Source of the DNA: Bifidobacterium lemurum
GTDB taxonomy: Bacteria > Actinomycetota > Actinomycetes > Actinomycetales > Bifidobacteriaceae
DNA: 64,000 nt
Assembly (NCBI RefSeq): GCF_014898175.1
Contig: NZ_CP062948.1
Location: 992,001 to 1,056,000, forward strand
Reading direction: 5' to 3'
Shown: positions 28,084 through 60,931 of the stretch, piece after piece
How positions within the stretch are numbered: position 1 is the stretch's first letter
Layout of the letters: every line of letters starts with the position of its first letter
The notes under the pieces: model-generated
The model's input: the letters and a program-made list of their open reading frames with translations, nothing else
The model's database searches: none
Told to the model about the DNA's origin: nothing
Position numbers and translations under genes: made by a program

Positions 28084-28463
28084 CGGAAGCAAGCGAGCCG
28101 GTCTCCACATAGTCGTATCGCCCATCCATCACCAAATGTTTGATCATCTCGCGCGCGGATGGGTACAGCTGAACCTCATCGAAGATGATCAGGGAGCACC
28201 GCCGCACAAGTTGGGTTCGGTAATAGACGAAAAGAATCATGAAGAACGTATCCAGATTGTCTTTCTGTTCCTCGAAATCGACCTGACATCTTTGAGGAAT
28301 CGGGAGAAATCCGCGAGAATGGTGGATTCATACTCGCTTCTTCCGAATTCCTGCGCCACAGTGCTTTTCCCCCACGACGGACCACTTCAATCAGCAAGGC
28401 CTCTTTGCCTGCCGCGCGGTTTCTCCAGGAAACCAAATCCTGCAACGCTTTTCGCTTCAACAT
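28084..28463 (-). pseudogene. Decayed AAA_14/DUF4143 ATPase, N-terminal part, frameshifted
   Basis: The minus strand from the ATG at 28463 reads MLKRKALQDLVSWRNRAAGKEALLIE. It then shifts frame into WGKSTVAQEFGRSEYESTIL (Walker A region), and shifts again into SLIIFDEVQLYPSAREMIKH (Walker B DEVQ) and GRYDYVETGSLAS. At least two frameshifts and loss of the whole C-terminal half make it a pseudogene. It stops at the end of the regulator gene. Two 14-bp direct repeats lie 13 bp upstream of its start. AGAGG before the ATG is a relict ribosome binding site. Confidence 0.8.
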
Positions 28464-28476
28464 ATCAACCTCTTAT

Positions 28477-28523
28477 CACGATGCCGCCGTATGGGGATTG
28501 CCAGATTTACACGATGCCGCCGT
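28477..28523. repeat. Direct repeats upstream of the decayed ATPase gene
   Basis: CACGATGCCGCCGT occurs at 28477-28490 and 28510-28523, a 33-bp period. It lies directly before the start of the decayed AAA_14/DUF4143 gene. This matches the repeat placement seen at the three other ATPase loci of the window. Confidence 0.75.
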
Positions 28524-28612
28524 GGAGGAATCGGCATCCTCTGGCGCTGCAGCAATCGCCAGAACTAAATACTTCGAGGACTCGAGCGGAACGCCCCTCA
28601 ACAGGCCCTGGC

Positions 28613-28717
28613 GAGTTTGGTGTGTCGGCCCGCCGAGCCGGCCTCACGTAAAACGATTGATTCGAGAGTTCGGTGTGCGAAATCGGCCCTGTCTGGCAAA
28701 TCCGACACACCAAACTC
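28613..28717. repeat. Inverted-repeat-bounded element (GAGTTTGGTGTGTCGG arms)
   Basis: A 16-bp arm at 28613-28628 is exactly complementary to 28702-28717. Inside, a variant arm (GAGTTCGGTGTGCG) appears near 28674. The outer 13 bases match the arms of the element at 19029-19144 while the interior differs. There is no coding potential. The remaining bases of 28524-28799 show nothing else. Confidence 0.8.
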
Positions 28718-28799
28718 GTTATCACCTCGCAATCCACCGAATAATAGGAAAATCCGGACACGCCTTTGACCTGCAACCCGAGCATGAGCGCATATAGCG

Positions 28800-28834
28800 A
28801 AGCCGCCGCGCGGCTTGTGGCTGCGCGGCGGCTT
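28800..28834 (-). terminator. Strong hairpin after the GtrA-like gene
   Basis: AAGCCGCCGCGC pairs perfectly with GCGCGGCGGCTT (12-bp stem, 11-nt loop), 57 bp beyond the stop of the 28892 gene in its direction of transcription. No U-tract is present. Confidence 0.6.
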
Positions 28835-28891
28835 GCTGTCGAGGAAAGGAGAAAGAGAAGTCGTAAGAGATTGCCCGGGATTACCCGAGGA

Positions 28892-29446
28892 TTACTTGGC
28901 GTCGGCCGCCTTGGCGTCCTTGTTCTTGGGCATGATCCAGAACTTGAGCAGCGGGTAGCTCACGATAACCGCGAGCAGCGTGTTCACCACGGAGGCGATG
29001 GTTCCGGCGATGCCGGCGCCCATGCCCCAGCCCTGGCACAGCGAGGTGACGTAGCCCGGCAGCACGAGGTTGACGACCACGATGACCACGGCGAGGATCG
29101 CGTACTTCCAAGCGGCGTCCTTGAAGCTGGAGTCGGACTTGAACACCCACTTCATCTGCACGAAGAAGTTCACGACCTGCGCGATCACCTCGGCGAAGAG
29201 GAAGGTGAGGAAGCCGCCCAGACCGTTGCCGGATTCGGGATAGTTGAAGATGAGGAAGTAGAACGGCGTGGTCAGGCCCATGCCCGTGACGAAGATCGCA
29301 GTGCCAATCCAAGTGACCACGAAGCGGGAGATCGTGGAGACGTTCGACAGGACGTTGAACAGGATGAACTCCCAGATGGTCGGATGGTTCTTGATCCACT
29401 GGCGGATCGGGCCAAGCTGCTTGTTGTCGGCGGTGGTTTCGGTCAT
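28892..29446 (-). CDS. GtrA-like small membrane protein
   Basis: This encodes 184 residues with four predicted membrane helices (about 27-50, 55-90, 118-138 and 145-168). The opening WEFILFNVLSNVSTISRFVVTW and the helix containing AQVVNFFVQMKWVFK recall the GtrA family, which helps flip or transfer lipid-linked glycosyl groups. The C-terminus is Lys/Ala-rich. It lies 131 bp downstream of a cytoplasmic GH3 glucosidase on the same strand, so the two may share a transcript. The exact role is unknown. Confidence 0.72.
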   Translation of the reverse strand: MTETTADNKQLGPIRQWIKNHPTIWEFILFNVLSNVSTISRFVVTWIGTAIFVTGMGLTTPFYFLIFNYPESGNGLGGFLTFLFAEVIAQVVNFFVQMKWVFKSDSSFKDAAWKYAILAVVIVVVNLVLPGYVTSLCQGWGMGAGIAGTIASVVNTLLAVIVSYPLLKFWIMPKNKDAKAADAK

Positions 29447-29577
29447 GATGCGCTCCTTAGCGTTCTTCAGTTGATCTCGTTGTCTCTCATAGGCGTCGGC
29501 CGTCCGGCGGATTGGTCGGCCGGCCGACGCATGTGTTGGTTATCGGGTCGAAGCTTGGGCGGGTAGGCACCCGTCGG

Positions 29578-32004: not shown

Positions 32005-32249
32005 GGTTCTCCCTTGCACTCGAGGTCTTGTCGATGAGTCGAGGTGTGTGCTGCGGCGCACGACCGTCTACGGTTCATCGCTAATGTCGATTGAACCAGA
32101 CCTTGGCCGCGGCATGAGAGCGGTTTTCACAACCTGTCGTTTTCGCCGCACAATCGGTCGGCGGGCGTCAGGCGGAGAATCGGGGCCGACGTAACGGTTC
32201 GTCTGGGTTAGCGCCGTGGGATGGCCGCAACGCCAAATCCCGCCTCCGG

Positions 32250-32969
32250 CTAGGCGGCGATGGTGGCGGCGAGCGCTTCGAGCAGTTGTTTGCGACGACG
32301 ACGGGAGACGGCGAGTCGGGTGTCGTCGCGCAGCTGGCAGATGGTTTGGTCGACGGCCACCACGTACCGCAGGTTCACCAAATAGCAGGAGTTCACCGTG
32401 ACAAAGCCTTTGCCTTCCAGTTGCGGGAGGAAGCTTTTGAGTGTGCCGGTGAACTCGTACCGCGCATCGACCGCATGCACGATGATTTTGTGCTTGCTGC
32501 ATTCCAAATATGTGATATGCGACAAGGGCACGCGCGCCACGCCACGTGCGGTGGAGAACGTCATCGTCTCGTTGGACCCACGCACACGCTTCGCCGTCAG
32601 GCACCGATCAATCTCCCGCGCGAAGGCGAAATAACTGACGGGTTTGAGCAGGTAGCTCAACGCGTTCACCTCATAGCCGCGGATGGCGAACTGCGCCATA
32701 TTGGTGACGAACAGTAACGTCACGTCGATATCGCGTTCGCGAATCGCACGGGCCGTCTCAAAGCCGTCCAAATCCCCCATCTCCACATCGAGCATCACCA
32801 CGTCGGCGTCACCGCGCCAGTTGCGCAACATGGCCTCTCCGGATTCGTATTCATGCACGTCGAACAGCACGTCGGAGTGAGACCGCTCGTACCGACGCAG
32901 ATGGTCGTTGAGAATCGCTCGCGCCTCGCCGTCATCATCAACAATCGCTATCCGCAATGTCTCACACAT
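32250..32969 (-). CDS. LytTR-family response regulator (no adjacent kinase)
   Basis: This encodes 239 residues from the ATG at 32969 after GGAGGAG. The receiver domain has the acidic pair in IAIVDDDGEA, the phospho-acceptor Asp in VVMLDVEMG and the conserved Lys in YLLKPVSY. The LytTR DNA-binding domain follows (ISHITYLECS-like LSHITYLECSKHKIIVHA, then FVTVNSCYLVNLRYV). Proteins of this type bind paired direct repeats. No kinase gene is next to it, so it may be served by the kinase at 58060 or by one outside the window. It lies between two GH3 genes, suggesting control of glycosidase expression. Confidence 0.9.
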   Translation of the reverse strand: MCETLRIAIVDDDGEARAILNDHLRRYERSHSDVLFDVHEYESGEAMLRNWRGDADVVMLDVEMGDLDGFETARAIRERDIDVTLLFVTNMAQFAIRGYEVNALSYLLKPVSYFAFAREIDRCLTAKRVRGSNETMTFSTARGVARVPLSHITYLECSKHKIIVHAVDARYEFTGTLKSFLPQLEGKGFVTVNSCYLVNLRYVVAVDQTICQLRDDTRLAVSRRRRKQLLEALAATIAA

Positions 32970-33093
32970 ACCGCTCTCCTCCATGTCTCTCCGCACGAGG
33001 GAATGATTCATTCATCACGTTTCAGAAGCAGTAAACAACCTTGAACTTGGTTTAAGGCAAATAACGACACGCACGATACCTTGTCATAATGCA

Positions 33094-33137
33094 TGAATCG
33101 GCGGAAGGCGCTCAAAATGAGTCCTTCCGCCGATTCA
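33094..33137 (-). terminator. 15-bp-stem hairpin after membrane GH3 gene
   Basis: TGAATCGGCGGAAGG pairs perfectly with CCTTCCGCCGATTCA across a 14-nt loop. It lies 28 bp beyond the stop of the 33166 gene and separates it from the LytTR gene. Confidence 0.65.
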
Positions 33138-33165
33138 TACACTATTCGGCCGCGGTTATCGCCCT

Positions 33166-36051
33166 TTACGCAAGACCGACCTGTGCAGTCTCCGCCTTGC
33201 GCCGCGCAAAATAACGCCGCACCGTCAACGTCTCCAGTGCGATGAACGCGACCGCCGCGACGGCGACCGCCGCGTATGTCAACCGCTGCCACATGAGCAT
33301 GGTGGTCTTCGGTTCGCCATTCTCATATGCCCAGCTGTTCACCGCGGTGTACAGGATATTGTGAGACGCGTTCCGCATGGCCTTGATCGACGTGGCCGAT
33401 TGGTCGGTGATGTGATTCGTGCCATCCATAGGAGCGAGCATCGCATCGTTGCCATTGCGAATGCCTTCGTCGGCGTACATGTATCCGGCTCCTTCGAAAT
33501 AGTCGGTCAACACGAAGCCACGGAAGCCCCACTCGTCGCGCAGCACGGTCTGCAGCAGGTTGGCGCTGCCGCCGGCCCACGTCGTGCCAATGTAGTTGAA
33601 CGAGCTCATCACCGCCTGCGCTCCGCCTTGCTTCACCGACATCTCGAACGGCTTGAGATAGATTTCACGAATCGCCTGCTCGTCGGCCCAAGTGCACAGC
33701 ATGCTGGCTCGGTTGGTTTCCTGGTCGTTGAGGGCGAAATGCTTCATGAACGCATACACACCCTTGGTGCGAGCCCCGGCGATCTGACTGGACGCCATCA
33801 CACCAGACAGGTACCCATCTTCGGAGAAGTATTCGAAGTTACGGCCTGCGAACGCCGAACGGTGGATATTCATCGCCGGCGCATACCAACCATGGATGCT
33901 TAATTCGCGCGCCATCTGTCCCATCATCTCACCGTACTGTGTGGCAAGATCCTGGTTCCAGGTGCAGGCGACCGAAGTGGATGCAGGGAATCCAATTGAG
34001 GCCGCACCGGTGAAATTGTTGTTCAGCGCGGCCGGACCGTCTGAATCGGTGAGCGCCACCTTACCGATCGAATCAATGGCTTGGGTGCCGTAACCAGCGA
34101 GCGCGATCAAATCGTCCATCTGCTCAAAGGTCAGCTGGTCAAGCAGCGCGTCCCACTGCTCATCATCGTAGTCAACACCGCGAAGATCGGCCAGACGGAT
34201 GCCATTGTCAGCACCGGTGACAGGCATCTCATCATCGGAATCGTTGCGCGATTCCAAGTCGTAGTTGGAGATATTCGTGAACTGCGCCTTGAGGTCCTCG
34301 GCCATCGACAAACTCTCGGGCGCAGCCGTGGCCTGCGTGTAGTTCGCGAACTGATCAGCACGGCTGAGGTATGTCACATGGCCCTCAGCGTTGTCGAACT
34401 GGTTGGTGGCCACGATCTGGTCACCGTCGTGGGTGTTGTCCTCGGTGTCATAGGTGATGGTCTCGTCGACCGTCACGGTCTGCTCGTCGATCACCGTGTG
34501 GGAGTCCGAATTGATGGACACCACATAATCACCGGCCTCCAGCACGTACGCCTCGGCGTTCTCGGAATCGTAGGACGCCATGTCGTCGTCCTCGAACTCG
34601 ACCGTCAACGTCTGGCTCTCGCCCGGCTCCAACAGATCGGTCTTGTCGAACTCCACCAGATTCGCGGTGGCCTTCTCGATGCCTCCATTGGTGTACGGCG
34701 GATTGTAATAGACCTCGACCACATCCTTGCCCGCGGTGTCGCCCGTGTTGGTGACGGTCACATCGAAGCTCACGGTGCCGTCCGCATAGGTCACATCACC
34801 CATCTCTTGAGAGAAGGTGGTGTAGGACAGGCCGTAGCCGAACGGATACTGCACCGTGGCGTCGTAGTCGATCAGACCTTCGTCGGCGGCCGTCTCATAG
34901 AACTTGTAACCCACATAAATACCCTCAACGTAGTTCACGAACGACGGTTTGCGCACTTCTCCTCGGTTCTCGGTGTTGAATTCCGACATGTTGTCGTAGT
35001 AGAACGAGCCGAAGTTGTTGAAGGTGGGGGTCGCGGTGAGATCACGGGCGAATGTGTCCGAGGTCTTGCCGGAGGGATTCGTTGCACCGGTCAGAATCTC
35101 GCCGAGTGCCGCGAAACCGGTCTGGCCGGCGGGCGGGCACCACAGCACGGACTTGATTTGAGGGTATGCGTCGACGAAATCGAGTTCGAAAGCGTTCGCG
35201 CCGTTATACACGACGGTGACGTTATCGAAGTTTTCCGTGACCAGATCGACCATGTTCCGCTCGGTCTGGCTCAACTCCAGAAAATGCGCGCCATCCGCAA
35301 AATCCTCGTATTCTGTGGAGTTGTCGGTATAGGTGATGCCATCGGCTTTCATGTTCGTCGGCAAGTCGGCACCCTCGCCGCCCACACGCGCGATCACGAT
35401 CACCGCTTGGTCGGAGAATGACTTGGCATTTGAAATCAAGTCATCGGAATACTGGTCGGCCGGCACCTCGGGCAGCGTCCAATCCTGTTCCCACATCCCC
35501 ACTTCGGGACGATCGGCGCGGTACTGCGTATACAGGTCACTGAGCTCGGTGTTGGTCTCGAGCCCCGCGTCCTTCATGCCATCGAGCAGTGAAGTGGTGG
35601 CATACTGGTCGTTCATCGAGCCCGATCCCGTGCCCCCATACACAGGATTGGTTGACGCCCAACCGAACACGTTCACCTTTGTGGAACCCAACGGCAGGTT
35701 GGCCTCATCGTTCTGCAACAATGTGACCGCTTCACGTTGGATATCCGTCGCGAGTTCATTGGCGGAGTCAATCGAAGATTCCGAAAGCGTGTATTTCTCT
35801 CCGGTGGACATGGTGATGAGATTGGACAATGGTCCGAACAGCATCATGACGATGGCCACTACCATCGCCACGAACACCACCAACCACGATTGCGAATGAA
35901 TAAGTTTTCGCGTGGCCTCCTGCGGCATTCTACGGGTATTGGTTACAACCGTCGTGACCACGGCCAAAACCAATACCACGGCGATGGCAATCAGATATGG
36001 TGCCACCGATTCCAGCACGGTTATGACATCGGCCATGTTGATCTGCAGCAT
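33166..36051 (-). CDS. Membrane-tethered GH3 glycosidase with reversed domain order (1)
   Basis: This encodes 961 residues from the ATG at 36051 after GGAGGAG. Two N-terminal helices (about 11-37 and 55-80) flank a basic loop. A third helix near 925-945 is followed by RRYFARRK. By the positive-inside rule the catalytic part lies outside, held at both ends. Domain order is reversed: the GH3_C-like domain comes first (VFGWASTNPVYGGTGSGS near 128-145), then a FnIII-like domain opening at YPFGYGLSYTTF (about 400), then the barrel (TDSDGPAALNN near 670, MKHFALNDQETNR, and the presumed nucleophile Asp in FVLTDYFEGAGY near 850). Other GH3 enzymes with this reversed order are known in rumen bacteria. 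The merR gene lies upstream on the same strand. Confidence 0.9.
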   Translation of the reverse strand: MLQINMADVITVLESVAPYLIAIAVVLVLAVVTTVVTNTRRMPQEATRKLIHSQSWLVVFVAMVVAIVMMLFGPLSNLITMSTGEKYTLSESSIDSANELATDIQREAVTLLQNDEANLPLGSTKVNVFGWASTNPVYGGTGSGSMNDQYATTSLLDGMKDAGLETNTELSDLYTQYRADRPEVGMWEQDWTLPEVPADQYSDDLISNAKSFSDQAVIVIARVGGEGADLPTNMKADGITYTDNSTEYEDFADGAHFLELSQTERNMVDLVTENFDNVTVVYNGANAFELDFVDAYPQIKSVLWCPPAGQTGFAALGEILTGATNPSGKTSDTFARDLTATPTFNNFGSFYYDNMSEFNTENRGEVRKPSFVNYVEGIYVGYKFYETAADEGLIDYDATVQYPFGYGLSYTTFSQEMGDVTYADGTVSFDVTVTNTGDTAGKDVVEVYYNPPYTNGGIEKATANLVEFDKTDLLEPGESQTLTVEFEDDDMASYDSENAEAYVLEAGDYVVSINSDSHTVIDEQTVTVDETITYDTEDNTHDGDQIVATNQFDNAEGHVTYLSRADQFANYTQATAAPESLSMAEDLKAQFTNISNYDLESRNDSDDEMPVTGADNGIRLADLRGVDYDDEQWDALLDQLTFEQMDDLIALAGYGTQAIDSIGKVALTDSDGPAALNNNFTGAASIGFPASTSVACTWNQDLATQYGEMMGQMARELSIHGWYAPAMNIHRSAFAGRNFEYFSEDGYLSGVMASSQIAGARTKGVYAFMKHFALNDQETNRASMLCTWADEQAIREIYLKPFEMSVKQGGAQAVMSSFNYIGTTWAGGSANLLQTVLRDEWGFRGFVLTDYFEGAGYMYADEGIRNGNDAMLAPMDGTNHITDQSATSIKAMRNASHNILYTAVNSWAYENGEPKTTMLMWQRLTYAAVAVAAVAFIALETLTVRRYFARRKAETAQVGLA

Positions 36052-36170
36052 GGTTCGTCTCCTCCTTGATGTTCTTCTTGTGCAATGGCGATTCGACGCT
36101 GACTTGCCGACAGTACGTCGTCATACCATCGCTCTCATTCCATCAAGGAAAACCCTGCTACAACCGTTGT

Positions 36171-36204
36171 TTACTTTTTCGGCCGTTCCTGCGCCTTTTT
36201 TGGT
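36171..36204 (-). pseudogene. Orphaned 3' end of the merR gene
   Basis: On the minus strand this segment encodes the last residues KKAQERPKK and a TAA stop. They would follow MLSSKP of the MerR protein at 37315 if the IS30 element and its 2-bp GT duplication were removed. The segment is cut off from its gene by the insertion. Confidence 0.6.
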
Positions 36205-37319
36205 CTTGAATTTTCAGAGCAAGTGCAACGGGTGTGAATGATATGGGCCCATGGGTTCCCGATAGCATGGTGTTTGCTTACGACAACCAGACATCGGGAG
36301 GGCCCATGGGCCGGTACACTCATCTTACCTTGGCCGAACGCGAGGAGATCATGCTGCTCAGGCACGAGGGCAGGAGCTATGGCGAGATCGCCCTGGCCAC
36401 GGGCAGGGACAAATCGACCATCAGCCGCGAGATAGACCGCAACTCGTTCAAGGTCGGCACGGGCCGCTGCTACCGCGCCTCGACGGCCCAACGCCGTTAC
36501 GAGGAACGCCGGCTCGCCTGCGCGCGTCCGCGTCGCCTCGACGACGGGGAACTGGCCGGGCTGGTCGTGCGGCTGATCGCGCGGGAGCGTTGGTCCCCCG
36601 AGCAGATCGCGGGCAGGATTGGTCTGGAACGGCCCGATCTGGCCGTCTCCGCGTCGACGATCTACCGGGCGATCAACGGCCGCGAGCTCGACCCGCCCGA
36701 TCTGGCCCGCACCCGCCGCGGGATCAAGGGCCGGCTGCGCCGCAAGGGCAAACGCCGGCACCGCAAGGACGGGCCCGAGGAACGCCGGGGCAAGATCCCC
36801 GACGCAAGGCCCATATCGGAGCGGCCCGCCGAGGTCGAGGAGCGTTCCAGGCTGGGCGACTGGGAAGGCGACACCGTCGTGGGTAAAGGCGCGGGAGCGT
36901 GCCTGGTCACGCTCGTGGACCGCAAAAGCGGTCTGCTTGCCGGCGGACGCGCCGCCACGCACACCAAACGCGACGTCGCCCGCGTGGAGAGCCGGATGCT
37001 CCGCGAGCATCCCGAGACGCGCACCATCACCCTGGACCGGGGCATGGAGTTCGCCGATTTCAAGAAGGTCGAGCAATCCACCGGCGCGGTCTGCTACTTC
37101 GCGCTGCCGCACCACCCCTGGCAGCGCGGCAGCAACGAGAACACCAACGGCCTAGTCCGCGAGTACTTCCCCAAAGGCACCGACTTCGCCACCATCGACG
37201 ACGACCAGGTCCAGGCCGTGTACGACGCTATCAACCACAGACCACGCAAACGCCACGGCTACAGGACACCCTGGGAAATCCACCACTCAACAACGTTGCA
37301 CTTGCTCTGAAAATTCAAG
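36205..37319 (+). mobile_element. IS30-family insertion sequence (1115 bp)
   Basis: Perfect 26-bp terminal inverted repeats occupy 36205-36230 (CTTGAATTTTCAGAGCAAGT...) and 37294-37319. A GT dinucleotide at 36203-36204 and 37320-37321 may be the target duplication. It holds one intact transposase gene. The right repeat supplies a new stop codon to the neighbouring merR gene. Confidence 0.93.
36306..37310 (+). CDS. IS30-family transposase
   Basis: This encodes 334 residues from the ATG at 36306 after GGGAGG; upstream in-frame ATGs lie in the element's end. The N-terminal helix-turn-helix is LTLAEREEIMLLRHEGRSYGEIALATGRDKSTISREI. The DDE core reads LGDWEGDTVVGKG (first Asp), ITLDRGMEFADFKKVE (second Asp) and HHPWQRGSNENTNGLVREYFPKGTDF (Glu). 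The C-terminal NHRPRKRHGYRTPWE is the family hallmark. The frame is intact and the stop lies inside the right terminal repeat, so the element may be active. Confidence 0.95.
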   Translation: MGRYTHLTLAEREEIMLLRHEGRSYGEIALATGRDKSTISREIDRNSFKVGTGRCYRASTAQRRYEERRLACARPRRLDDGELAGLVVRLIARERWSPEQIAGRIGLERPDLAVSASTIYRAINGRELDPPDLARTRRGIKGRLRRKGKRRHRKDGPEERRGKIPDARPISERPAEVEERSRLGDWEGDTVVGKGAGACLVTLVDRKSGLLAGGRAATHTKRDVARVESRMLREHPETRTITLDRGMEFADFKKVEQSTGAVCYFALPHHPWQRGSNENTNGLVREYFPKGTDFATIDDDQVQAVYDAINHRPRKRHGYRTPWEIHHSTTLHLL

Positions 37320-37746
37320 GTTTTGACGACAGCATGTCACGCATCCAAGCGATATCGGCGTCTTGAAACTCCTCTTTGTCAGCCGCCGAAAACTGTTCAG
37401 ATTCATAACGTTCTGCAAAGGAATCGATAAGCTCCAACGCATGACGCAACCGCTGGATCTCGGCCTCGACCTCGCTGCGCGTGACGCGCAAAAGCTCCTG
37501 GCGATCATCCATATCCAATTCACTGTTGTTCGCCAACACGGCCAGCCTGCGGATATTCTCTATTGACATGCCTGTATGCCGCCAAAAATCCACGATTCTT
37601 AATTCATTAACAGCCGCATCATCGAACACACGATAACCTGATTCATTACGGCGTACCCTTAACAGCAAGCCTTTACGATCGTAAAAACGGATCGTCGACG
37701 CCGCGATACCGGTAAGTTCGGCAGTTTCCTGAATTGTGCGCTCCAT
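37315..37746 (-). CDS. MerR-family regulator, C-terminus clipped by IS30
   Basis: This encodes 143 residues from the ATG at 37746 after GGAAGGA. The winged helix-turn-helix is MERTIQETAELTGIAASTIRFYDRKGLLLRVRRNESGYRVFDDAAVNELRIV, followed by FWRHTGMSIENIRRL and a coiled-coil effector helix (about 75-115). The stop is TGA formed by the IS30 end, after MLSSKP. The uninterrupted gene would end about nine residues later, with KKAQERPKK. The core is whole, so the protein probably still works. It is on the same strand as, and upstream of, the membrane GH3 gene at 33166. The IS30 element now lies between them. Confidence 0.85.
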   Translation of the reverse strand: MERTIQETAELTGIAASTIRFYDRKGLLLRVRRNESGYRVFDDAAVNELRIVDFWRHTGMSIENIRRLAVLANNSELDMDDRQELLRVTRSEVEAEIQRLRHALELIDSFAERYESEQFSAADKEEFQDADIAWMRDMLSSKP

Positions 37747-37870
37747 ATTCCTTCCACTCCCCGTCGTATCGATGCCATACCTATTCGGATGGGCAAGCAG
37801 TGGCACACGCCAAGCGCATCATTGTCACCTTCCAATGATTGCACGAAAGTCTCCGCTCGGCCATATCCGT

Positions 37871-37928
37871 ATACTTCTCAAATTTTTTGAGAAGTATGTG
37901 GCATAACTTCTCAAAAAATTTGAGAAGT
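37871..37928. repeat. Twin palindromes upstream of an AAA_14/DUF4143 gene
   Basis: Two 23-bp palindromes, 37873-37895 and 37906-37928, each have arms ACTTCTCAAA/TTTGAGAAGT around a 3-bp centre. The second is the exact reverse complement of the first, so the whole region is itself an inverted repeat with a 10-bp spacer. They end 34 bp before the ATPase start at 37963. They could be binding sites for the ATPase or its control elements. Confidence 0.9.
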
Positions 37929-41908: not shown

Positions 41909-41923
41909 CTATGTTCCGTTGGA

Positions 41924-42694
41924 TTAGGCGGCGGGGGTGAAATACTCCGATACCGCCTGGCGGAACAGGGAACGGCGGCGGCGCGCGATCGGCAGCCGAA
42001 GCGATCGCCGCACGACGCAGACATCGCCGTTTACGGCGCTGACATGGCGAAGATTGACCAGACAACCGCTGCTGCATTGCGCGAAACCGAACGACGACAG
42101 GCGTTCGCCAAGTCGGGCGATCGAATCCTTGAAAAGGAAATCACCACCCACCGTATGCACCGTGATCAGACGGTCGCGGCTTTCCACATACACGACATCG
42201 TCAACCGGCACCCGCAGGCAACGACCGCATTGCGCGAACAGCAGCGTCTTCCCGCCCGAACGGGCCAACCGGTCCATGCACCGGTCGAACACCGCCGCGC
42301 ACTCCCGATATCGCGCCTCCGCCTCGCGTAGGGCGCGCCGCGGCCGCATGATGTATCCGCACGCGTCCACCTCATAGCCCAACACGGCGTCGCGTAGATC
42401 ATCGGCGATGAATGCTATGGCCGGATTCCCTCCCATACGACGGATCGAGCGCGCCATCTCCATACCGTCGGCGCCCCGGCTACCGTCGAGAACCAGCAGA
42501 TCGATGAACGCCGAATACGAGGCCAACAGCTGCGAGGCCTGATCCATTTCGTAAATATCGAAGGCGATATGACGGTGTTCGTCGGCATAACGACGCAGCA
42601 TCGCGCACACCGTCTCACGCTCGGCGGCATCCGCGAGCGCCACCGCGACGGATACGACCGCTCCGGGATGCGTCCGCTCATTGTCGGTGGACAT
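41924..42694 (-). CDS. LytTR-family regulator with degenerate receiver domain
   Basis: This encodes 256 residues from the ATG at 42694 after AAGGAGGA. The receiver-like domain keeps an Asp in DLLVLDGSRGADGMEMAR. The usual Asp-Asp metal pair is replaced (VSVAVALADAAERE), and the conserved Lys is Arg (GYIMRPRRAL). Phosphorylation is therefore doubtful. The LytTR domain is well kept (VDDVVYVESRDRLITVHTV, then GFAQCSSGCLVNLRHVSAV and a basic C-terminus). The gene is divergent from a membrane GH3 gene across 288 bp and is a good candidate to control it. Confidence 0.85.
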   Translation of the reverse strand: MSTDNERTHPGAVVSVAVALADAAERETVCAMLRRYADEHRHIAFDIYEMDQASQLLASYSAFIDLLVLDGSRGADGMEMARSIRRMGGNPAIAFIADDLRDAVLGYEVDACGYIMRPRRALREAEARYRECAAVFDRCMDRLARSGGKTLLFAQCGRCLRVPVDDVVYVESRDRLITVHTVGGDFLFKDSIARLGERLSSFGFAQCSSGCLVNLRHVSAVNGDVCVVRRSLRLPIARRRRSLFRQAVSEYFTPAA

Positions 42695-42982
42695 CGATCC
42701 TCCTTCGGTTTGATGATGTCGGACCATTCGCAGACACCGGCAGGCAAGGCCAACATCGTTATTCAGCCGCGACCACGCCGGCGCCTCTTCCACTGTATCC
42801 GCATCATCGCAGGCGAAACCCCTCACGGAAAAGCAAGTTGTTCCACAAGGGTTTTTCCAAAAAGTACAAACAAAACCCACTTTCGTCCGACGGTCGTCAA
42901 TTCAGCCGAAACCACGACGGCGGGGACCTCGGCTCTGCTGCAATAAGCGTGTCATCATATGCCCCAGATCAAAGGAGAGTCG
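42695..42982. promoter_or_regulatory. Divergent control region between LytTR regulator and GH3 gene
   Basis: No gene is seen in these 288 bp. The region must hold promoters for both divergent genes, and AAAGGAGAG at the right end is the GH3 ribosome binding site. I did not find a clear pair of LytTR direct repeats by eye. Confidence 0.4.
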
Positions 42983-45967
42983 ATGCATATGAACCAACAC
43001 ACACCCTCGAACGGACGCAGGATCCTGTTGCGTGCGGGAACCGCGGTATGCGCGTTGCTGGCCGGCCTGTCGCTCACGGCGACGACGCTGACCGAAGCGA
43101 ACGCATCCAAGGTGCACAACTTCCTGGGCACCAACGCGACGCAGATCGTCAACGACGGCGATGAGAACGAGGACACCACCTATTTCGCGAGCGAATTCGA
43201 CTCGTGGGAGGACGCGTACAACAACGCGCTGGACACCAACCAGGACATCCAGGAGGAAGGCTCCGTGCTGGTGGAGAACAACGGCGCGCTGCCGCTGGCC
43301 TCCGGCGCGCGGGTGAGCATGTTCTCACGCTCGTCCACCGACATCGTCTACGGCGGCACGGGTTCCGGCTCCATCGACGAATCCACCGTCGTGGATCTGA
43401 AAACCGCGATGGAGAGCGCCGGATTCAGCATCAACCAGACCCTGTACGACTTCTACGACGGCCAGGAGGGCTACACGCGCACCACTTCGGACGTCGCCGA
43501 GGTGCCGGTCTCCGAATTCACCAGCGAGGTCGAAGCCTCCTACGCGGATTATTCCGACGCGGCCATCGTGGTCATCTCCCGCACCGGCGGCGAAGGCGAC
43601 GATTTGGACGCCGACACCGCGTACCTCAACCTGCAGGATTCCGAAAGGGAGCTGCTGGACTACGTGCAGCAGCGCTTCGACACGGTCGTCGTGCTGGTGA
43701 ACAGCTCCAACGCGATGTCGCTGGATTGGCTGGACGACTACGGCGTGGACGCCTGCCTGTGGATCGGCGGCCCCGGCCAGTCCGGCCTGACCGCCGTGGC
43801 GGAGATGCTCAACGGCACCCGCACCCCGAGCGGCAAGTTCACCGACACGTACGCAGCGGACTCGCTCTCCTCGCCGGCGATGCAGAACTTCGGCGACTAC
43901 ACCTACACGAACGCCACCACCCAGGCCAGCGACGGCGCGTCCATGTCGGACACCGTCTACGATCTGCTCACCGACAGCAGCGGCAATGTCACCGAAATCG
44001 CCAACGCGAAGAACTACGTCGTCTACGCCGAGGGCATCTACGTGGGCTACGCCTACTACGAGACCCGCTACGAGGACAGCGTGCTCGGCCAGGGCAACGC
44101 CGACGGCGACGCGGGCACCTTCGCCTCATCCTCGTCGTGGGATTATGACGAGGAGGTCAACTACGCCTTCGGCTACGGCCAGTCCTACACCACCTTCGAG
44201 CAGACCCTCGATTCGGTCGACTTCGACGGCGACAAGGCCACGGTGACCGTGACGGTGACCAATACGGGCGACACCTACTCCGGCAAGGACGTGGTCGAGG
44301 TCTACGCGCAGGCGCCCTATATCGAAGGCGGTCTGGAGAAGGCCAGCGTGCAGCTGTGCGGCTACGACAAAACCGAGGAGCTGGCGCCGGGCGAGTCCGA
44401 AACCCTCACCATCGACGTGGATCTGCGCGACATCGCCTCCTACGATTCCGAAAACGAGGAAGCCTATGTGCTCGACGAGGGCACGTATTATCTGGCCATC
44501 GGCTCCGACGCCCACAACGCGCTGAACAACATCCTCGCGGCCAAGGGCATGACCACGGCCGACGGCATGGACGAGGACGGCGACGCGGACAAGACCGCCA
44601 CCACCGAGCTGGACTACACGGTGTACGACACCGACGAGAACAGCGGCAACGCGATCGAGAACCGCTTCGAGGACGCCGACCTGAACTACTATCAGGACGA
44701 CACCGTCACATACCTCTCCCGCTCCGACTGGCAGGGCACCTGGCCGGAATCCTATGATTCCGTGGAGGCCACCGACGAGATGATCGCCGACCTGGAGAAC
44801 AACTACACCGCCAACGAGGCCGAAACCACCGAAATCACCTACGGCGCCGACAACGGGCTCAACATCGCCACGATGCGCGACGCCGACTACGACGATGAGG
44901 CGTGGGACCAGTTGCTCGACCAGATGACGCTCGAAGAGCAGGTGGAGCTCGTGCAGAACGGCGCCAGCCAGACGGCCGCCGTCGAATCGATCGCCTTCCC
45001 CGGCAGCGTGGACGCCGACGGCCCCGCCGGCTTGGGCAGCTCCACCGGCCGCCGCTACTATCTCGAGGACATCAACGACAAGGACAGCGCCACCACGACC
45101 AGCGCCGTGGGCTACAACTCCTCCGTGGTGATCGCCTCCACCTGGAGCCGCGACATGGCACGCCAGCGCGGCGAAGCCATCGGCGAGGATGGTCTGTGGA
45201 CCAATACCCAAGGCTGGTGGGGCCCGGGCGCGAACACGCACCGCACCCCGTACGGCGGCCGCAACTTCGAGTACTACTCCGAGGATTCCTTCCTCGGCGG
45301 CACCATCGGCGCGGAGGACATCGCCGGCGCGCAGTCCAAGGGCCTGCGTTCCTTCGTCAAGCATTTCGCGGTCAACGACCAGGAGCTCAACCGCCATGGC
45401 CTGTCCACCTTCGCCAACGAGCAGTCGCTGCGCCAGATCTACCTCAAGCAGTTCGAGTACGTCGTCAAGGACGGCGGCACGCTGTCGCTGATGTCGTCCT
45501 TCAACCGCATCGGCGTCAAGTGGGCCGGCGGCGACGCCGCGCTGTGCACCGACCTGCTGCGTGACGAATGGGGCTTCGTGGGTAGCGTGGAGACCGATTT
45601 CAACTTCCACGCCACCGACGGCTACATGAACGTGCGCTCCGGCCTGCGCGGCGGCACCGACCAGTGGCTCGCCATGGGCGAGAGCGGCCTGATCGACTTC
45701 GTCAAGGAGGACGCCGACCTCGCGGCCGAAGTGCGTGAGGCCTGCCACCGCATCCTCTACTCGATCTCCCGCTCCTCGGCCATCAACGGCATCGGCTCCA
45801 GCGGACGCATCGTCAAAACGACCGTCTGGTGGCAGTGGCTGCTCTACGGCATGACCGGCGTGACCGGCGTGCTCACGCTCGCCCAGCTCGGCCTGCTCGG
45901 CTACGGCACCGTCCGTGACGAGCGCCGCCGCGAAGCCCACATCACCGTGGCACCGACCGCCCAATGA
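42983..45967 (+). CDS. Membrane-tethered GH3 glycosidase with reversed domain order (2)
   Basis: This encodes 994 residues from the ATG at 42983 after AAAGGAGAG (an ATG at 42959 precedes the binding site). The N-terminus has one hydrophobic helix (AVCALLAGLSLTATTLTEANA), either an anchor or a signal peptide. A C-terminal helix (WQWLLYGMTGVTGVLTLAQLGLLGY) is followed by RDERRRE, so the enzyme faces outward. The GH3_C-like domain comes first (FSRSSTDIVYGGTGSGSIDES), then FnIII at FGYGQSYTTF (about residue 394). The barrel follows with DADGPAGLG (about 677), KHFAVNDQELNRH, and the presumed nucleophile Asp in SVETDFNFHATDGY (about 870). A small membrane protein gene follows 32 bp downstream. Confidence 0.9.
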   Translation: MHMNQHTPSNGRRILLRAGTAVCALLAGLSLTATTLTEANASKVHNFLGTNATQIVNDGDENEDTTYFASEFDSWEDAYNNALDTNQDIQEEGSVLVENNGALPLASGARVSMFSRSSTDIVYGGTGSGSIDESTVVDLKTAMESAGFSINQTLYDFYDGQEGYTRTTSDVAEVPVSEFTSEVEASYADYSDAAIVVISRTGGEGDDLDADTAYLNLQDSERELLDYVQQRFDTVVVLVNSSNAMSLDWLDDYGVDACLWIGGPGQSGLTAVAEMLNGTRTPSGKFTDTYAADSLSSPAMQNFGDYTYTNATTQASDGASMSDTVYDLLTDSSGNVTEIANAKNYVVYAEGIYVGYAYYETRYEDSVLGQGNADGDAGTFASSSSWDYDEEVNYAFGYGQSYTTFEQTLDSVDFDGDKATVTVTVTNTGDTYSGKDVVEVYAQAPYIEGGLEKASVQLCGYDKTEELAPGESETLTIDVDLRDIASYDSENEEAYVLDEGTYYLAIGSDAHNALNNILAAKGMTTADGMDEDGDADKTATTELDYTVYDTDENSGNAIENRFEDADLNYYQDDTVTYLSRSDWQGTWPESYDSVEATDEMIADLENNYTANEAETTEITYGADNGLNIATMRDADYDDEAWDQLLDQMTLEEQVELVQNGASQTAAVESIAFPGSVDADGPAGLGSSTGRRYYLEDINDKDSATTTSAVGYNSSVVIASTWSRDMARQRGEAIGEDGLWTNTQGWWGPGANTHRTPYGGRNFEYYSEDSFLGGTIGAEDIAGAQSKGLRSFVKHFAVNDQELNRHGLSTFANEQSLRQIYLKQFEYVVKDGGTLSLMSSFNRIGVKWAGGDAALCTDLLRDEWGFVGSVETDFNFHATDGYMNVRSGLRGGTDQWLAMGESGLIDFVKEDADLAAEVREACHRILYSISRSSAINGIGSSGRIVKTTVWWQWLLYGMTGVTGVLTLAQLGLLGYGTVRDERRREAHITVAPTAQ

Positions 45968-45999
45968 CGGACGTTCCGCATCGATTCAAGGAGAACATC

Positions 46000-46416
46000 A
46001 TGGAAACCCAAACCACATCATTCGATTTGACCATGCGGCTCCGCGCCAAAGGGGCCGGATTCTACGTGGCCGCGTTGGCGGCCGTGGCGGCCGTCATCGG
46101 CATCGTCGGCAATGCCATGCTCGGCTCGTTCGCGACCCTGTCGACGCTGCTGCTGGCGGCGGGCGTGGTCCTCTTCCTGGCATCCGTCGCGCTGCCGTGG
46201 GATCTGGTGGTCATGTGCAGCTATTTCTGCTACATCGCGGCATTCTGCCGGTTCATCGCCGAACAGCTGTACACCATCTCGAACGTGCTCACGGCCATCG
46301 ACGCGAACTCGTTCGCGACCTCGTTCATCATCGCCGCAGCGGGTTGCGCCGCCGCGATGGTGATCGGTCTGGTCGGCGCCATCATGCCGCAGGATAAGAG
46401 GCAGACGGCCGCCTAA
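46000..46416 (+). CDS. Small four-helix membrane protein of unknown function
   Basis: This encodes 138 residues from the ATG at 46000 after AAGGAGAA. Four hydrophobic segments (about 20-40, 45-65, 66-88 and 105-128) make up nearly the whole protein. The short basic tail (QDKRQTAA) should be cytoplasmic. I recognise no family. Its tight position after the membrane GH3 gene suggests the same transcript, perhaps a partner of that enzyme in the membrane. Confidence 0.72.
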   Translation: METQTTSFDLTMRLRAKGAGFYVAALAAVAAVIGIVGNAMLGSFATLSTLLLAAGVVLFLASVALPWDLVVMCSYFCYIAAFCRFIAEQLYTISNVLTAIDANSFATSFIIAAAGCAAAMVIGLVGAIMPQDKRQTAA

Positions 46417-46441
46417 ACCAGCCGCACCGTCCCACCGCCGC

Positions 46442-46481
46442 ACCGCCCGTCCGCGACCTTCCAGATTCGCGGACGGGCGGT
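46442..46481 (+). terminator. Hairpin ending the GH3-membrane protein unit
   Basis: ACCGCCCGTCCGCGA pairs perfectly with TCGCGGACGGGCGGT (15-bp stem, 10-nt loop), 25 bp after the membrane-protein stop. No U-tract follows. Confidence 0.65.
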
Positions 46482-46555
46482 TGCACATGCACTCCGCCCA
46501 GACACGCGCACTACACTGGAATCCATGCCACGACCTCAAGCCGCGAAGGAGCGCC

Positions 46556-47488
46556 ATGATCGACAATGCGACCAAAGTGTTTCTCTCCGTGGTCGAATGC
46601 GGCAGTTTCAGCAAAGCCGCCTCCCGGCTTTATGTGACCCCGAGCGCCGTGATGAAGCAGATCAACCGTCTGGAATCCGCCATCGGCGTCCAGCTGCTCG
46701 AGCGGCATCCGACCGGCGTCGCGCCCACCGCCGCCGGGCAATCGTATTACAAAGACGCACGGGCCATGGTGGACATGGAACAGGCCGCCATCAAACGGGC
46801 CAAGGCGGCGCAGACACGGCAGCCGACGGCCGTGCGCATCGGAGACTCCCAGCTCAACCCCAGCCGGCCTTTGCTCGACGCCTGGTATACGGCGGTGAAG
46901 GAACGCCCTGAATGGCACCTCGACGAGCGCTATAAAATCATCATCACGCCGTTCAGCGACGAAGACACCTTCGACAACATCTTCGCCCGGCTGAACACGG
47001 ACATCGACCTGCTCACCAGCGCCATCGACGACCGCTATGTGAACGACACGATCGGCGCCGTGCCCTTATGGGAAAGCCACCTGTGCGTTCTGGTGCCGGG
47101 CGGACACCCGCTCGCACGCATCGCCGACTTCTCGCTGGACGACCTCAACGGGTATGACATCATATCCGCTCCGGTCGGTGCCGTGCATTCCATCGACGCA
47201 TTGCGCGCGTATCTGGCCGGCACCCATCCCGACATCCATCTGGTCACCACGCGCATCCCGATGATGGGAATCGCCACATTCAACTACTGCGCCGTGGAGG
47301 GATTGCCGATGCTCACCCACGAGGCGTGGGCGAATGTCCATCCCGCATTCGTGAGACTGCCCATCGAATGGGATTTCCACGAGAACTACGGCGTGCTGTA
47401 TGCCAAATCGAAGCGGGCGGAGCTTGAACCGCTGATCGAACTGATTTCCAGCCGGCAGTTCAATCCCTGGCGAGACCGACAGCCGTGA
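46556..47488 (+). CDS. LysR-family transcriptional regulator
   Basis: This encodes 310 residues from the ATG at 46556 after GAAGGAG. The winged helix-turn-helix is VFLSVVECGSFSKAASRLYVTPSAVMKQINRLESAIGVQLLERHPTGVAPTAAGQ. The effector-binding half (about 90-305) has LNTDIDLLTSAIDDRY and GAVPLWESHLCVLVPGGHPLA, as in LysR co-inducer domains. Its ligand is unknown. Its targets might be the adjoining GH3 unit, but LysR proteins usually control a divergent gene and none is present here. Confidence 0.9.
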   Translation: MIDNATKVFLSVVECGSFSKAASRLYVTPSAVMKQINRLESAIGVQLLERHPTGVAPTAAGQSYYKDARAMVDMEQAAIKRAKAAQTRQPTAVRIGDSQLNPSRPLLDAWYTAVKERPEWHLDERYKIIITPFSDEDTFDNIFARLNTDIDLLTSAIDDRYVNDTIGAVPLWESHLCVLVPGGHPLARIADFSLDDLNGYDIISAPVGAVHSIDALRAYLAGTHPDIHLVTTRIPMMGIATFNYCAVEGLPMLTHEAWANVHPAFVRLPIEWDFHENYGVLYAKSKRAELEPLIELISSRQFNPWRDRQP

Positions 47489-47492
47489 TTCG

Positions 47493-47597
47493 CCAAATGA
47501 GGAAGTCAAAACGGTCCAAACGAGGAAATGAAAACGGTCCAAATGAGGAAGTAAAATATGTCCAAATGAGGAAATGAAAACGGTCCAAATGAGGAAA
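47493..47597. repeat. 23-bp tandem repeats upstream of an AAA_14/DUF4143 gene
   Basis: Four 23-bp units (starting at 47493, 47516, 47539 and 47562) and a 13-bp partial fifth (47585) share CCAAATGAGGAA (CCAAACGAGGAA in one). They begin just after the LysR stop and end 38 bp before the ATPase start at 47636. Units 2 and 4 differ at one base; unit 3 ends TATGT instead of ACGGT. Having no spacers, the array is not CRISPR. It may be a set of binding sites. Confidence 0.92.
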
Positions 47598-47635
47598 CAG
47601 CCTCTGTGAGACCTACAAACGTAAGGATTTTCACT

Positions 47636-51197: not shown

Positions 51198-51354
51198 GCG
51201 TACCTCCTTGTAGTTGCGACGCTTATTGACTTCCGTTGCCGCGGGCCGGCGCGGCACGCCGGTTCGCGGCAACGGAAGAAAGGTTGTTCGGCCGTTCGTC
51301 AGGCGGTCGGCGAAGCGTCCGTCGACCGCCTGTCAGGCCGTTTCAGGCCGACCG

Positions 51355-54705: not shown

Positions 54706-54833
54706 ATTCCTCGACTACGCCCTGCGGGCTTCGCTCGGAATGACGAGGGATTGGAGATCCCCCGACTCTGGCTGTGCCTCCGCACGGGATGGCGGAGGGA
54801 TTACTCGGGATGACGAAAGGGATTCGCCTGGAA
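54706..54833. repeat. Dispersed REP-like repeat tract
   Basis: The tract is built from degenerate words such as GATTCCTCGACTACGCCC, CTCGGAATGACGAGGGATT and CGGGATGACGAAAGGGATTC. The same words recur at 60176-60345 and 60930-61060. It leads directly into a terminator that is duplicated at 61073. Confidence 0.7.
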
Positions 54834-59367: not shown

Positions 59368-59371
59368 CGGC

Positions 59372-60073
59372 TCACCTTCTGTAATAGGCGGCGAGCGCCT
59401 GCATCAGCGACTTCTTTTTGGACCGGCTTACCGGCAGCGAGGTCTCTCCCACCACAATCGTGTTGTCCACCACGGCCTTGACCCATTCCAGATTCACCAG
59501 ACAATACCTGCTGCACAAAGCGAAATGGACGGGTTCCAGCAGCGTGGCGGCCTCGCGCAGACTCCCCCATACCTTCCACGCGCCGTCTGCGGTGTGGTAG
59601 ACGACCTCATGGCCGAGCACCTCCACGTATTGCACGTCGTGTGAGGAGAGGAAATGCGTCTGGGTGCCGATCGTCAGGGACAGGGTCACGCCTTGGCGCT
59701 TGGCGACCAACGCCTCCGCCTTGCGCATCTTCAACGCGAAATCGTAGTAGTCGAACGGCTTGACCAGATAGCCGATCGCGTCCACGTCATAACCCATGGC
59801 CGCGTACTGCGCCATCTTCGTCGTGAACGCCAACACCACCTGCGAATCCAACTCGCGCAGCCGGCGCGCCACACCCAGACCATCCGTGCCCGGCATCTCC
59901 ACGTCCAGAAACACCACGTCGAACGCGGCCCTGTACCCCTCGAGGAACGAATCGCCGTCCATGAACCGGGTGACGGCGTACCGCGACGAGTCGCCCTCGT
60001 AATACCGGCCGACCGCCTCCGCGGTGCGGGCCGCGTCCTCATCGTCGTCATCGACGATCGCAATGGAAATCAT
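59372..60073 (-). CDS. LytTR-family response regulator paired with the GHKL kinase
   Basis: This encodes 233 residues from the ATG at 60073 after GGAAGGAG. The receiver domain is complete: IAIVDDDDED, phospho-Asp in VVFLDVEMPGTDG, and Lys in GYLVKPFDYYDF. The LytTR domain has SSHDVQYVEVLGHEVVYHTADG and HFALCSRYCLVNLEWVKAV, ending in a basic stretch (SRSKKKSLMQAL). The order regulator-kinase-GH3 on one strand suggests it controls the GH3 gene at 54928, and perhaps the others. Confidence 0.92.
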   Translation of the reverse strand: MISIAIVDDDDEDAARTAEAVGRYYEGDSSRYAVTRFMDGDSFLEGYRAAFDVVFLDVEMPGTDGLGVARRLRELDSQVVLAFTTKMAQYAAMGYDVDAIGYLVKPFDYYDFALKMRKAEALVAKRQGVTLSLTIGTQTHFLSSHDVQYVEVLGHEVVYHTADGAWKVWGSLREAATLLEPVHFALCSRYCLVNLEWVKAVVDNTIVVGETSLPVSRSKKKSLMQALAAYYRR

Positions 60074-60175
60074 CACCACTCCTTCCACGGCCGACCACTC
60101 TCCGATACCAAGCCTAACGCCTCCGAGCTCAGGATGATGAATCCCATCATGTCGGACGAAGCGCAGCACCTCCCG

Positions 60176-60345
60176 TCATGTTGAGCGAAGCGGGGCGGAG
60201 TCGAAACATCTCGAGATCCCTTGACTACGCTCGGAATGACGAAGGATTGGAGATCCCCCGACTCCGGCTGCGCCTCCGCTCGGAATGACGAGAGGAACTG
60301 CGCTCGGAATGACGAGAGGATTATCTGGGATGACGGAAGGAGGAT
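60176..60345. repeat. Dispersed REP-like repeat tract
   Basis: Several degenerate copies of CTCGGAATGACGA-type words, with GGAGATCCCCCGACTCCGGC between them, recur here. The block GATTGGAGATCCCCCGACTC is shared with 54750-54770. It is noncoding. Confidence 0.7.
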
Positions 60346-60404
60346 TCCGAATGTCGCTCGCCGTTGTCGAGCGGCCACCCATGCCGCATAGGGACTTCCC
60401 CAGC

Positions 60405-60455
60405 TTTCTATCAACTTAATACTTGATACATTAACTTGATAGAAAGTATTAAGTT
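60405..60455. repeat. Nested AT-rich inverted repeat
   Basis: AACTTAATACTT (60413-60424) pairs perfectly with AAGTATTAAGTT (60444-60455). TTTCTATCAACTTAA (60405-60419) also pairs with TTAACTTGATAGAAA (60431-60445) at 14 of 15 positions. The overlapping pairings make two alternative hairpins. It lies just before the 34-bp-arm palindrome and is AT-rich compared with its surroundings. Confidence 0.8.
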
Positions 60456-60493
60456 CATTAGTATGTTGGCTCTCGAGTTGCCATATACAAAAG

Positions 60494-60567
60494 TTCCATC
60501 CTAAAACGTGTGGGTTTACACATTTTAGGATGATAAAATGTGTAAACCCACACGTTTTAGGATGGAA
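60494..60567. repeat. Palindrome with 34-bp perfect arms upstream of an ATPase remnant
   Basis: 60494-60527 is exactly complementary to 60534-60567 across a GGATGA spacer. Within each arm, CATCCTAAAA and TTTTAGGATG words make a smaller inverted repeat. This mirrors the design at 37871-37928: a palindromic unit followed by its inverted copy. The first ATG of the following open frame lies in the spacer. Confidence 0.9.
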
Positions 60568-60931
60568 GGGTGAGGCCGGTATCGACGCGTCGACCGTACT
60601 CTCCGGCGATTCGCTCTTCACCGAATTCAAGGGCACGCTCACCGAGCAATACGTCTGCCAACAACTTATCGCCCAAGGATTCCAGCCATACTACTGGGCA
60701 AATCCCGACGGTCGCGCCGAAGTCGATTTCGTCATCAGCAGCAACGGCATGATCCTGCCCATCGAGGTCAAGGCGGAGCGCAATCTGCGAGCGAAAAGCC
60801 TGCATGTCGCCGTGGCCAAATACGACATCCCCATGTCCGTCCGGACCAGCCTCGCCGACTACCACCGCGAGGATTGGCTGACCAACGTGCCGCTGTGGGC
60901 CATCGGCTGCGTGAATCGCATACGGCAGTAA
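60530..60931 (+). pseudogene. AAA_14/DUF4143 ATPase remnant, C-terminal part only
   Basis: The frame opens at an ATG inside the palindrome and encodes 133 residues. From about residue 16 it matches the C-terminal end of DUF4143 proteins: DASTVLSGDSLFTEFKGTLTEQYVCQQLIAQGFQPYYW, then GRAEVDFVISSNGMILPIEVKAERN, a well-kept D...E-x-K nuclease-like core. The ATPase domain is missing. It looks as though a deletion fused the upstream repeat directly to the C-terminal fragment. There is no ribosome binding site, so expression is doubtful. Confidence 0.8.

Follow-up and report, generated by a model that had tools for sequence, protein, structure and literature searches.

Private upstream repeats as putative operators of AAA_14/DUF4143 (PDC-S01) ATPase genes in Bifidobacterium lemurum and other bacteria

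Members of the AAA_14/DUF4143 family of ATPases recur along a 64,000-nucleotide stretch of the Bifidobacterium lemurum genome (contig NZ_CP062948.1, positions 992,001 to 1,056,000; hereafter the window), where two intact genes, starting at 37963 and 47636, and two decayed copies near 28 and 60 kb are each associated with a DNA repeat (Table 1). From a comparison of these loci with their counterparts elsewhere, we propose that each gene of the family, which corresponds to the phage-defense candidate PDC-S01, probably carries a private operator that its own protein binds, most likely to the effect of repressing its own gene. The sequences themselves show that the repeats are present at a fixed spacing, overlap promoter-like boxes, are private to their genes and drift along with the protein. 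An earlier note on this DNA had supposed that each ATPase recognizes its own repeat for self-control, and both the enrichment of repeats before these genes and the manner in which the repeat follows the protein argue strongly, at the level of sequence, for that supposition.

The host genome (G000, one 2.97-Mb contig) contains 25 matches to AAA_14 (21 over the cut-off) and 19 to DUF4143, 18 of the latter in intact genes, while a sister-species genome (G052) contains 20 matches over the DUF4143 cut-off, of which 18 were tested, the other two having been missed by the gene caller. For each gene the best ungapped direct or inverted repeat between -200 and +40 of the start, taken as the longest open start, was compared with 200 dinucleotide shuffles, such that a doubled p of <= 0.01 denotes a score reached by none of the 200. 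Genes with at least 80 base pairs (bp) of upstream intergenic DNA and more than 500 bp from any family start served as controls (one antisense open reading frame is counted among them), and these intergenic controls are confined to the two Bifidobacterium-like genomes. At the stricter threshold, a repeat precedes 14 of the 18 intact members in G000 as against 25 of 155 controls (Fisher 1.7e-7), and 16 of 18 members in G052 as against 27 of 121 (Fisher 6.7e-8); at p <= 0.05 the corresponding counts are 16/18 versus 40/155 and 16/18 versus 41/121. The two tests are not independent, because ten members are orthologues common to both sets. Two G000 members miss the 0.05 threshold: at 2370749 an inverted repeat is visible but lies downstream of the longest start, and at 626561 none is clear. 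Judged by eye, almost all intact members in G000 are preceded by a repeat of their own. Of the significant direct repeats in the two genomes together, 27 of 28 in family genes versus 7 of 45 in control genes have lags of 21-24, 31-34 or 40-42 bp.

Significant inverted repeats were also found before two AAA_14 genes of G000 without a DUF4143 match, at 523568 (minus strand, L107) and 355421 (plus strand, L112), and before one ATPase gene of G052 with no DUF4143 match over the cut-off. We take these genes to be ATPase_2-like, and the rule may thus extend beyond DUF4143. Inspection by eye of the four sub-threshold AAA_14 matches in G000, which are presumably RuvB, RarA, DnaA and ClpX, disclosed no upstream repeat.

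While the placement of the repeats is shared, their sequences are not. Among the 153 pairs of paralogues in G000 the median cross-similarity of upstream regions (8.0) equals that of unrelated upstreams (8.0), and only two pairs exceed the control 99th percentile, which is about what chance would provide. By comparison, all ten orthologue pairs between G000 and G052 exceed that percentile, with scores from 32.5 to 142.5. Neither the motif of the 47636 array nor the near-consensus pattern of the 37963 palindromes has a second match in G000 at up to 3 mismatches, and a third G000 motif has no match away from its own gene at up to 2 mismatches; backward-read control patterns of the three motifs also gave no matches in G000. 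As such, the three tested repeats are unique to the promoter region of their own gene, as is expected of an autoregulated operator. Targets elsewhere for the repeats were considered and rejected, given the single genomic place of the three motifs and the lack of an exact match to one degenerate motif in viral contigs.

How the repeat relates to the protein was followed in two subfamilies. The first, named here for the 47636 gene, was assembled by searching 101 genomes of the genus and comprises 54 of 61 loci, the window's own gene included (L061 was excluded for a masked upstream region, L068 for an offset shifted by a contig end, and L161-L165 as cut or partial). A period of 23 bp was the best of the periods 21-24 in all 54 members, and when all lags from 8 bp upward were admitted the best direct lag was 23 or 46 in 53 of the 54. 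Motif similarity declines from a median of 0.93 among proteins at least 90% identical to 0.81 at 75-90% and 0.68 at 65-75% identity; the further medians are 0.43 (55-65%), 0.56 (47-55%) and 0.30-0.32 (below 47%), the last being close to the 0.29 given by column-shuffled motifs. Over the whole series motif and protein similarity correlate with a rho of 0.575, a value reached in none of 500 Mantel permutations. The array in the window bears a -10-like TAAAAT hexamer in its third unit from the end, and by eye TAAAAT or TAGAAT occupies this unit in seven of the eight members with at least 75% protein identity.

The second subfamily, that of the 37963 gene, is built on paired palindromes rather than arrays. 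In the window the two palindromes (37873-37895 and 37906-37928) have centers 33 bp apart and end 34 bp before the ATG. Of the 30 loci in this series 28 were used (L194 and L195 were dropped as partial); the lag and TANNNT analyses cover 27 genes, the misplaced start of L186 having led to its removal, and the covariation and Mantel analyses cover 24, as no palindrome pair could be cleanly placed in L180, L183 and L184. The best direct lag is 32 or 33 in 25 of the 27 genes, arising mostly from the two palindromes. Across the 48 palindromes, the positions paired at ±4 to ±8 from the center are complementary in 81-98% of cases, compared with 34-66% after right arms are reassigned among genes, and each of these positions is occupied by two to four types of base pair. 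The two palindromes of a single gene resemble one another (0.78) to a greater degree than they resemble palindromes of other genes (0.54), and half-site similarity falls as the proteins diverge (rho 0.83, a value reached in 0 of 500 Mantel permutations). A TANNNT lies at offset -16 from the center of the second palindrome in 10 of the 27 genes, where the next most frequent offsets hold 7, 6, 6 and 6 against an average of 0.87 per offset, in a count of related sequences that are not independent. The dependence of repeat sequence on the protein, which had been set out in advance as a point on which the idea could fail, is thus apparent in each of the two subfamilies, with no Mantel permutation of 500 matching the observed correlation in either.

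A third and more widespread subfamily was collected with a profile of two canonical members, from which the best 80 of 527 confirmed candidate loci were retained; all statements on loci across phyla refer to these. The nearest named relatives are from Bifidobacterium (57-64% protein identity), and the arrangement of gene and repeat recurs in loci from Bifidobacterium, Bacteroidota, Pseudomonadota and Omnitrophota. Enough upstream DNA was available for 78 of the 80, and the controls were 73 stretches at -600 to -465, mostly coding. A repeat was detected at doubled p <= 0.01 in 44 of 78 loci versus 4 of 73 control stretches, and at p <= 0.05 in 59 versus 9, so the enrichment over other DNA on which the earlier note had staked its idea appears both in the host genome and across phyla. 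Many actinobacterial and some Bacteroidota members have direct repeats of 22-23 bp, and many others have a single palindrome. When the loci are anchored on TTGACA or TTGATA (24 sites in 23 loci), 60% of outer-arm cells are complementary for a palindrome centered 3 bp ahead of the hexamer, against 21-35% at 16 other shifts, and at least five of eight outer pairs are complementary at 12 of the 24 sites, which describes a palindrome holding a -35-like box. The hexamer is situated 34-40 bp before the start codon in 15 loci, and in three of them (L230, L240 and L254, the first two being close relatives) a TATACT or TATAAT follows it at 17 bp, a spacing from which leaderless transcripts may be supposed. 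Plasmids also carry such units: in a sample of ten hand-picked loci, drawn from 40 listed of 363 records, six pass 0.05 after doubling (Runella, Moraxella, Spartinivicinus, Salipiger, Collinsella and Thermus JL-18, the last by virtue of a low-complexity stretch), and the Azotobacter copy passes before doubling only.

The protein to which these sites may belong was modeled for the 47636 gene with high scores (predicted local distance difference test, pLDDT, 92.6; predicted template modeling score, pTM, 0.92). In our own reading the model comprises an AAA+ domain, a putative winged helix at about residues 206-291 (helices 214-226, 234-242 and 251-263 plus a wing), and a PD-(D/E)XK-like domain from about residue 292 to the end. 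The top Foldseek matches in the PDB are the archaeal AAA+ ATPase SSO1545 (template modeling score, TM-score, of at most 0.47), a clamp loader and, at third rank, Cdc6/Orc1 on origin DNA (E 1.2e-5, with a low TM-score of 0.26-0.28); a maltose-system regulator entry, CED-4 and RuvB follow further down, and all of these may be taken as fold-level hints only. In 40 aligned sequences of the 47636 series D350, E364 and K366 are invariant and E348 nearly so, while in 27 aligned sequences of the 37963 series D380, Q396 and V397 are invariant and no conserved lysine occupies the usual PD-(D/E)XK place. That the putative catalytic-site residues are kept in one series and not in the other argues that the repeat is concerned with binding and not with cutting.

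This last point bears upon the first of the alternatives, in which the repeats are sites where the ATPase-nuclease acts upon DNA, through cleavage, recombination or mobility, and gene and repeat together form a minimal mobile unit. In several orthologue pairs inspected by eye, the homologous DNA starts no more than a few bp from the first base of the repeat and in some pairs extends just to the stop codon, and two arrays orthologous to arrays of G000 persist in G052 without a DUF4143 gene (near 1441510, L278, and 1420699, L277). Homology between the two genomes ceases 40-160 bp upstream of the start in 7 of 11 members (one of them without DUF4143) and likewise in 13 of 46 controls (p 0.04); the one clean empty site exhibits no obvious duplication and its edge is not at the repeat; the 37963 subfamily keeps its palindromes without the catalytic lysine; and viral contigs yielded only 9 loci with a relative of the single query profile used. 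Because control genes also lose homology near their starts and the excess is small, we do not claim a mobile unit, and the earlier suggestion that gene and repeat travel together as a selfish element finds little backing here. We regard action on the repeat DNA as unlikely.

The likeness to Cdc6/Orc1 raises a further possibility, namely that gene and repeat are a pair akin to a replication initiator with its boxes, as in archaeal Orc1/Cdc6 with origin boxes or plasmid Rep with iterons, and that the repeat is a present or past private origin or a titration site. Orc/Cdc6 proteins are AAA+ proteins with a winged helix. In the available parts of two reports, haloarchaea are described as having genomes with several orc/cdc6 paralogues, beside each of which lie diverse repeats of its own (PMC3528665, PMC3936714), and individual origins of Haloarcula hispanica as dependent on co-located cdc6 genes (PMC3936714). 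So far as those texts extend, an AAA+ protein with a putative winged helix and many paralogues with their own repeats would be the point of likeness, and an archaeal AAA+ ATPase and Cdc6/Orc1 are first and third in the Foldseek list. However, the haloarchaeal sites are replication origins, while the repeats here overlap promoter-like boxes, the 18 intact genes are scattered over one contig, the TM-score to Cdc6 is low, and the protein carries a nuclease-fold domain. An origin-like role is, in our estimation, quite improbable.

One may also ask if some other host regulator binds the repeats. The available portion of the report on RptR of E. coli describes a repressor bound to direct repeats in the promoter of a defense locus (PMC12255303), which provides a precedent. 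As far as that portion shows, RptR, a small protein in its own right, has a single conserved site, unlike the present case, in which the ATPase would double as the putative regulator and each copy has a different site. The many private motifs of a single genome would demand as many regulators, each tracking one member, and the surroundings of the units, in which neighboring genes were not counted, showed no obvious regulator gene inherited along with them; we therefore give this reading little credence. Least credible is an action of the repeats within a 5' leader RNA, which their position adjoining the start codon and the inverted form of some would allow, but against which stand the direct repeats of the 23-bp arrays, the -35-like box inside the palindrome of about 12 loci of the widespread subfamily (where the palindrome would not be transcribed), and a constant spacing of 23 or 33 bp that seems more natural for proteins on a DNA helix.

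A private operator read by its own protein accommodates these observations more readily, yet several results weigh against it and temper its force. No repeat was detected at p <= 0.01 for 4 of 18 members in G000 and 2 of 18 in G052, nor at p <= 0.05 in 19 of the 78 loci across phyla, and four of the ten plasmid copies, two of them from Thermus, have no clear repeat, those of Sinorhizobium, Acidithiobacillus and Thermus HB5018 not passing 0.05; conversely, 16-22% of control genes carry some repeat at p <= 0.01. Common descent alone would lead motif and protein to drift together to some extent, and in the 47636 series the trend has a reversal (median similarity 0.43 at 55-65% identity but 0.56 at 47-55%). 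Covariation of the arms is in part built in, because the palindromes were placed by complementarity, and this placement leans the TANNNT-offset, covariation and half-site drift tests toward structure; the anchor test leans the same way, as the TTGACA geometry was first noticed in some of the same loci. Lastly, when correlations with the motif are computed domain by domain, the strongest belongs to the C-terminal portion of the ATPase domain in one subfamily (partial correlation 0.58, winged helix 0.18) and to the ATPase core in the other (0.65, winged helix 0.00), so that the winged helix as the reader of the site is not supported by this analysis.

PADLOC assigns both intact genes and the 60-kb fragment to PDC-S01. 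In the available part of a recent survey this candidate is an ATPase fused to a PD-(D/E)XK member, ranks as the fourth most common defense system or candidate across prokaryotes, and belongs to a set for most of which validation is pending, with none named there for S01 (PMC12988326). Within the open-licence literature, as far as its accessible text goes, we found no description of upstream repeats or of an operator of PDC-S01/DUF4143 genes, and none of a mechanism for PDC-S01.

Proteins that set their own level via repeats at their own promoter are familiar from toxin-antitoxin autoregulation, from the C proteins of restriction-modification systems and from plasmid iterons. In those systems the regulators are antitoxins, controllers and replication proteins, unlike the single-gene ATPase-nuclease considered here.

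The features of the window are collected in Table 1. That two intact genes and two remnants of one family each lie directly behind a repeat, as the earlier note had it, agrees with both the Pfam matches and the repeat calls; its coordinates and repeat types were also right, but the 28-kb remnant in fact runs along the minus strand and has its start side at 28463, and the start assumed at 60530 is not credible. Both intact genes hold AAA_14 and DUF4143 over the curated cut-off, and each remnant holds one domain fragment.

Table 1. Family loci and associated repeats in the window (positions in the 64,000-nucleotide stretch)
Feature	Position	Strand	Basis
Truncated remnant of AAA_14 gene (28-kb remnant), split between reading frames	28092..28463	-	Pfam; homology to G052
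Two direct repeat units before start side of 28-kb remnant	28477..28536	-	similar units in G052
Twin 23-bp palindromes, proposed operator of 37963 gene	37873..37928	+	orthologous palindromes in relatives
Intact AAA_14/DUF4143 ATPase, 456 amino acids	37963..39333	+	Pfam; PADLOC PDC-S01 (PDLC04787, 4.3e-93)
Five tandem 23-bp units, proposed operator array of 47636 gene	47493..47607	+	28 bp before ATG
Intact AAA_14/DUF4143 ATPase-nuclease-fold protein, 425 amino acids	47636..48913	+	Pfam; PADLOC PDC-S01 (1.9e-65)
Outer (second) inverted repeat of 60-kb remnant	60404..60458	+	also before intact G052 orthologue
34-bp inverted arms, fully complementary (60494-60527 and 60534-60567), proposed operator of decayed gene	60494..60567	+	
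C-terminal DUF4143 fragment (60-kb remnant)	60530..60931	+	Pfam; homology to G052 gene from 60574

The 28-kb remnant covers positions 60-105 of the AAA_14 profile in a minus-strand frame (Pfam), and DNA homology to G052 (90.6%) extends over 28092-28523. Its two repeat units (28477-28503 and 28510-28536) are each 27 nucleotides long, 78% alike with a common 14-bp start, and 33 bp apart. The 60-kb fragment covers positions 93-159 of the DUF4143 profile (Pfam) and matches PDC-S01 at 2.7e-39 (PADLOC). Where its inverted arms differ from those before the intact gene in G052, both arms have changed in a matching way. As the ATG at 60530 sits between these arms, the start of this reading frame is probably an artefact.

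Other repetitive DNA was noted beside these loci. A dispersed inverted-repeat element of about 105 bp, which looks like a miniature inverted-repeat transposable element, occurs at 28612-28718 of the window and at many places in G000; its arm, GAGTTTGGTGTGTCGG, has 48 matches in G000 at up to one mismatch (control pattern 0), and paired arms start 89 bp apart. One copy adjoins the 28-kb remnant, and one arm adjoins an orphan array in G052. Repeats resembling GCTCGGGATGACG are found at 54733-54815 and 60229-61042, with 9 matches in the window (one at 18920) where 0.37 are expected. Two blocks of about 5.6-5.7 kb present in G000 (window positions 32163-37873 and 41918-47492) are replaced in G052 by 85 and 188 bp, and both end at the outer edge of a family repeat.

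In terms of mechanism, we infer that each repeat is bound by the protein of its own gene, that this protein binds as an oligomer, that the effect is to repress and not to activate, and that the protein has a role in defense. As the private repeat travels with the protein, the own protein is its simplest reader, and self-control is suggested by the position of the repeats over promoter-like boxes and by their restriction, in the cases searched, to a place in cis. It is reasonable to postulate that the protein, with its AAA+ ATPase, winged helix and PD-(D/E)XK fold, would bind its own repeat as an ordered oligomer: in the 47636-type subfamily as protomers lined up head to tail along units 23 bp apart, in the 37963-type subfamily as dimers on two palindromes about 33 bp apart, and in the third subfamily on direct units of 22-23 bp or on a single palindrome over the -35 box. 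The layout in Bifidobacterium-like genomes is that of a putative operator over a core promoter, and since the repeat overlaps the core promoter, repression, presumably the commonest outcome of such an overlap, is the most likely effect. Binding would thereby hold the protein at a low, self-set level, and the private sequences would keep the many paralogues of one genome from regulating one another, while the protein itself probably acts in antiviral defense.

A more speculative extension, possible although doubtful in our view, is that each member diversifies its own recognition code along with its private repeat, which would serve as operator and sensor at once; an invader or inhibitor that pulls the protein off the repeat would bring about derepression and so unleash the ATPase-nuclease. 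Were this so, privacy would let many alarms run side by side in one cell. On the proposed view, the sequence upstream of each gene specifies the DNA to which its protein should bind, which offers an entry point to PDC-S01. Dozens of homologues with predicted cognate sites would furthermore constitute a natural series for the evolution of protein-DNA specificity, and the private operators may be a source of orthogonal regulators.

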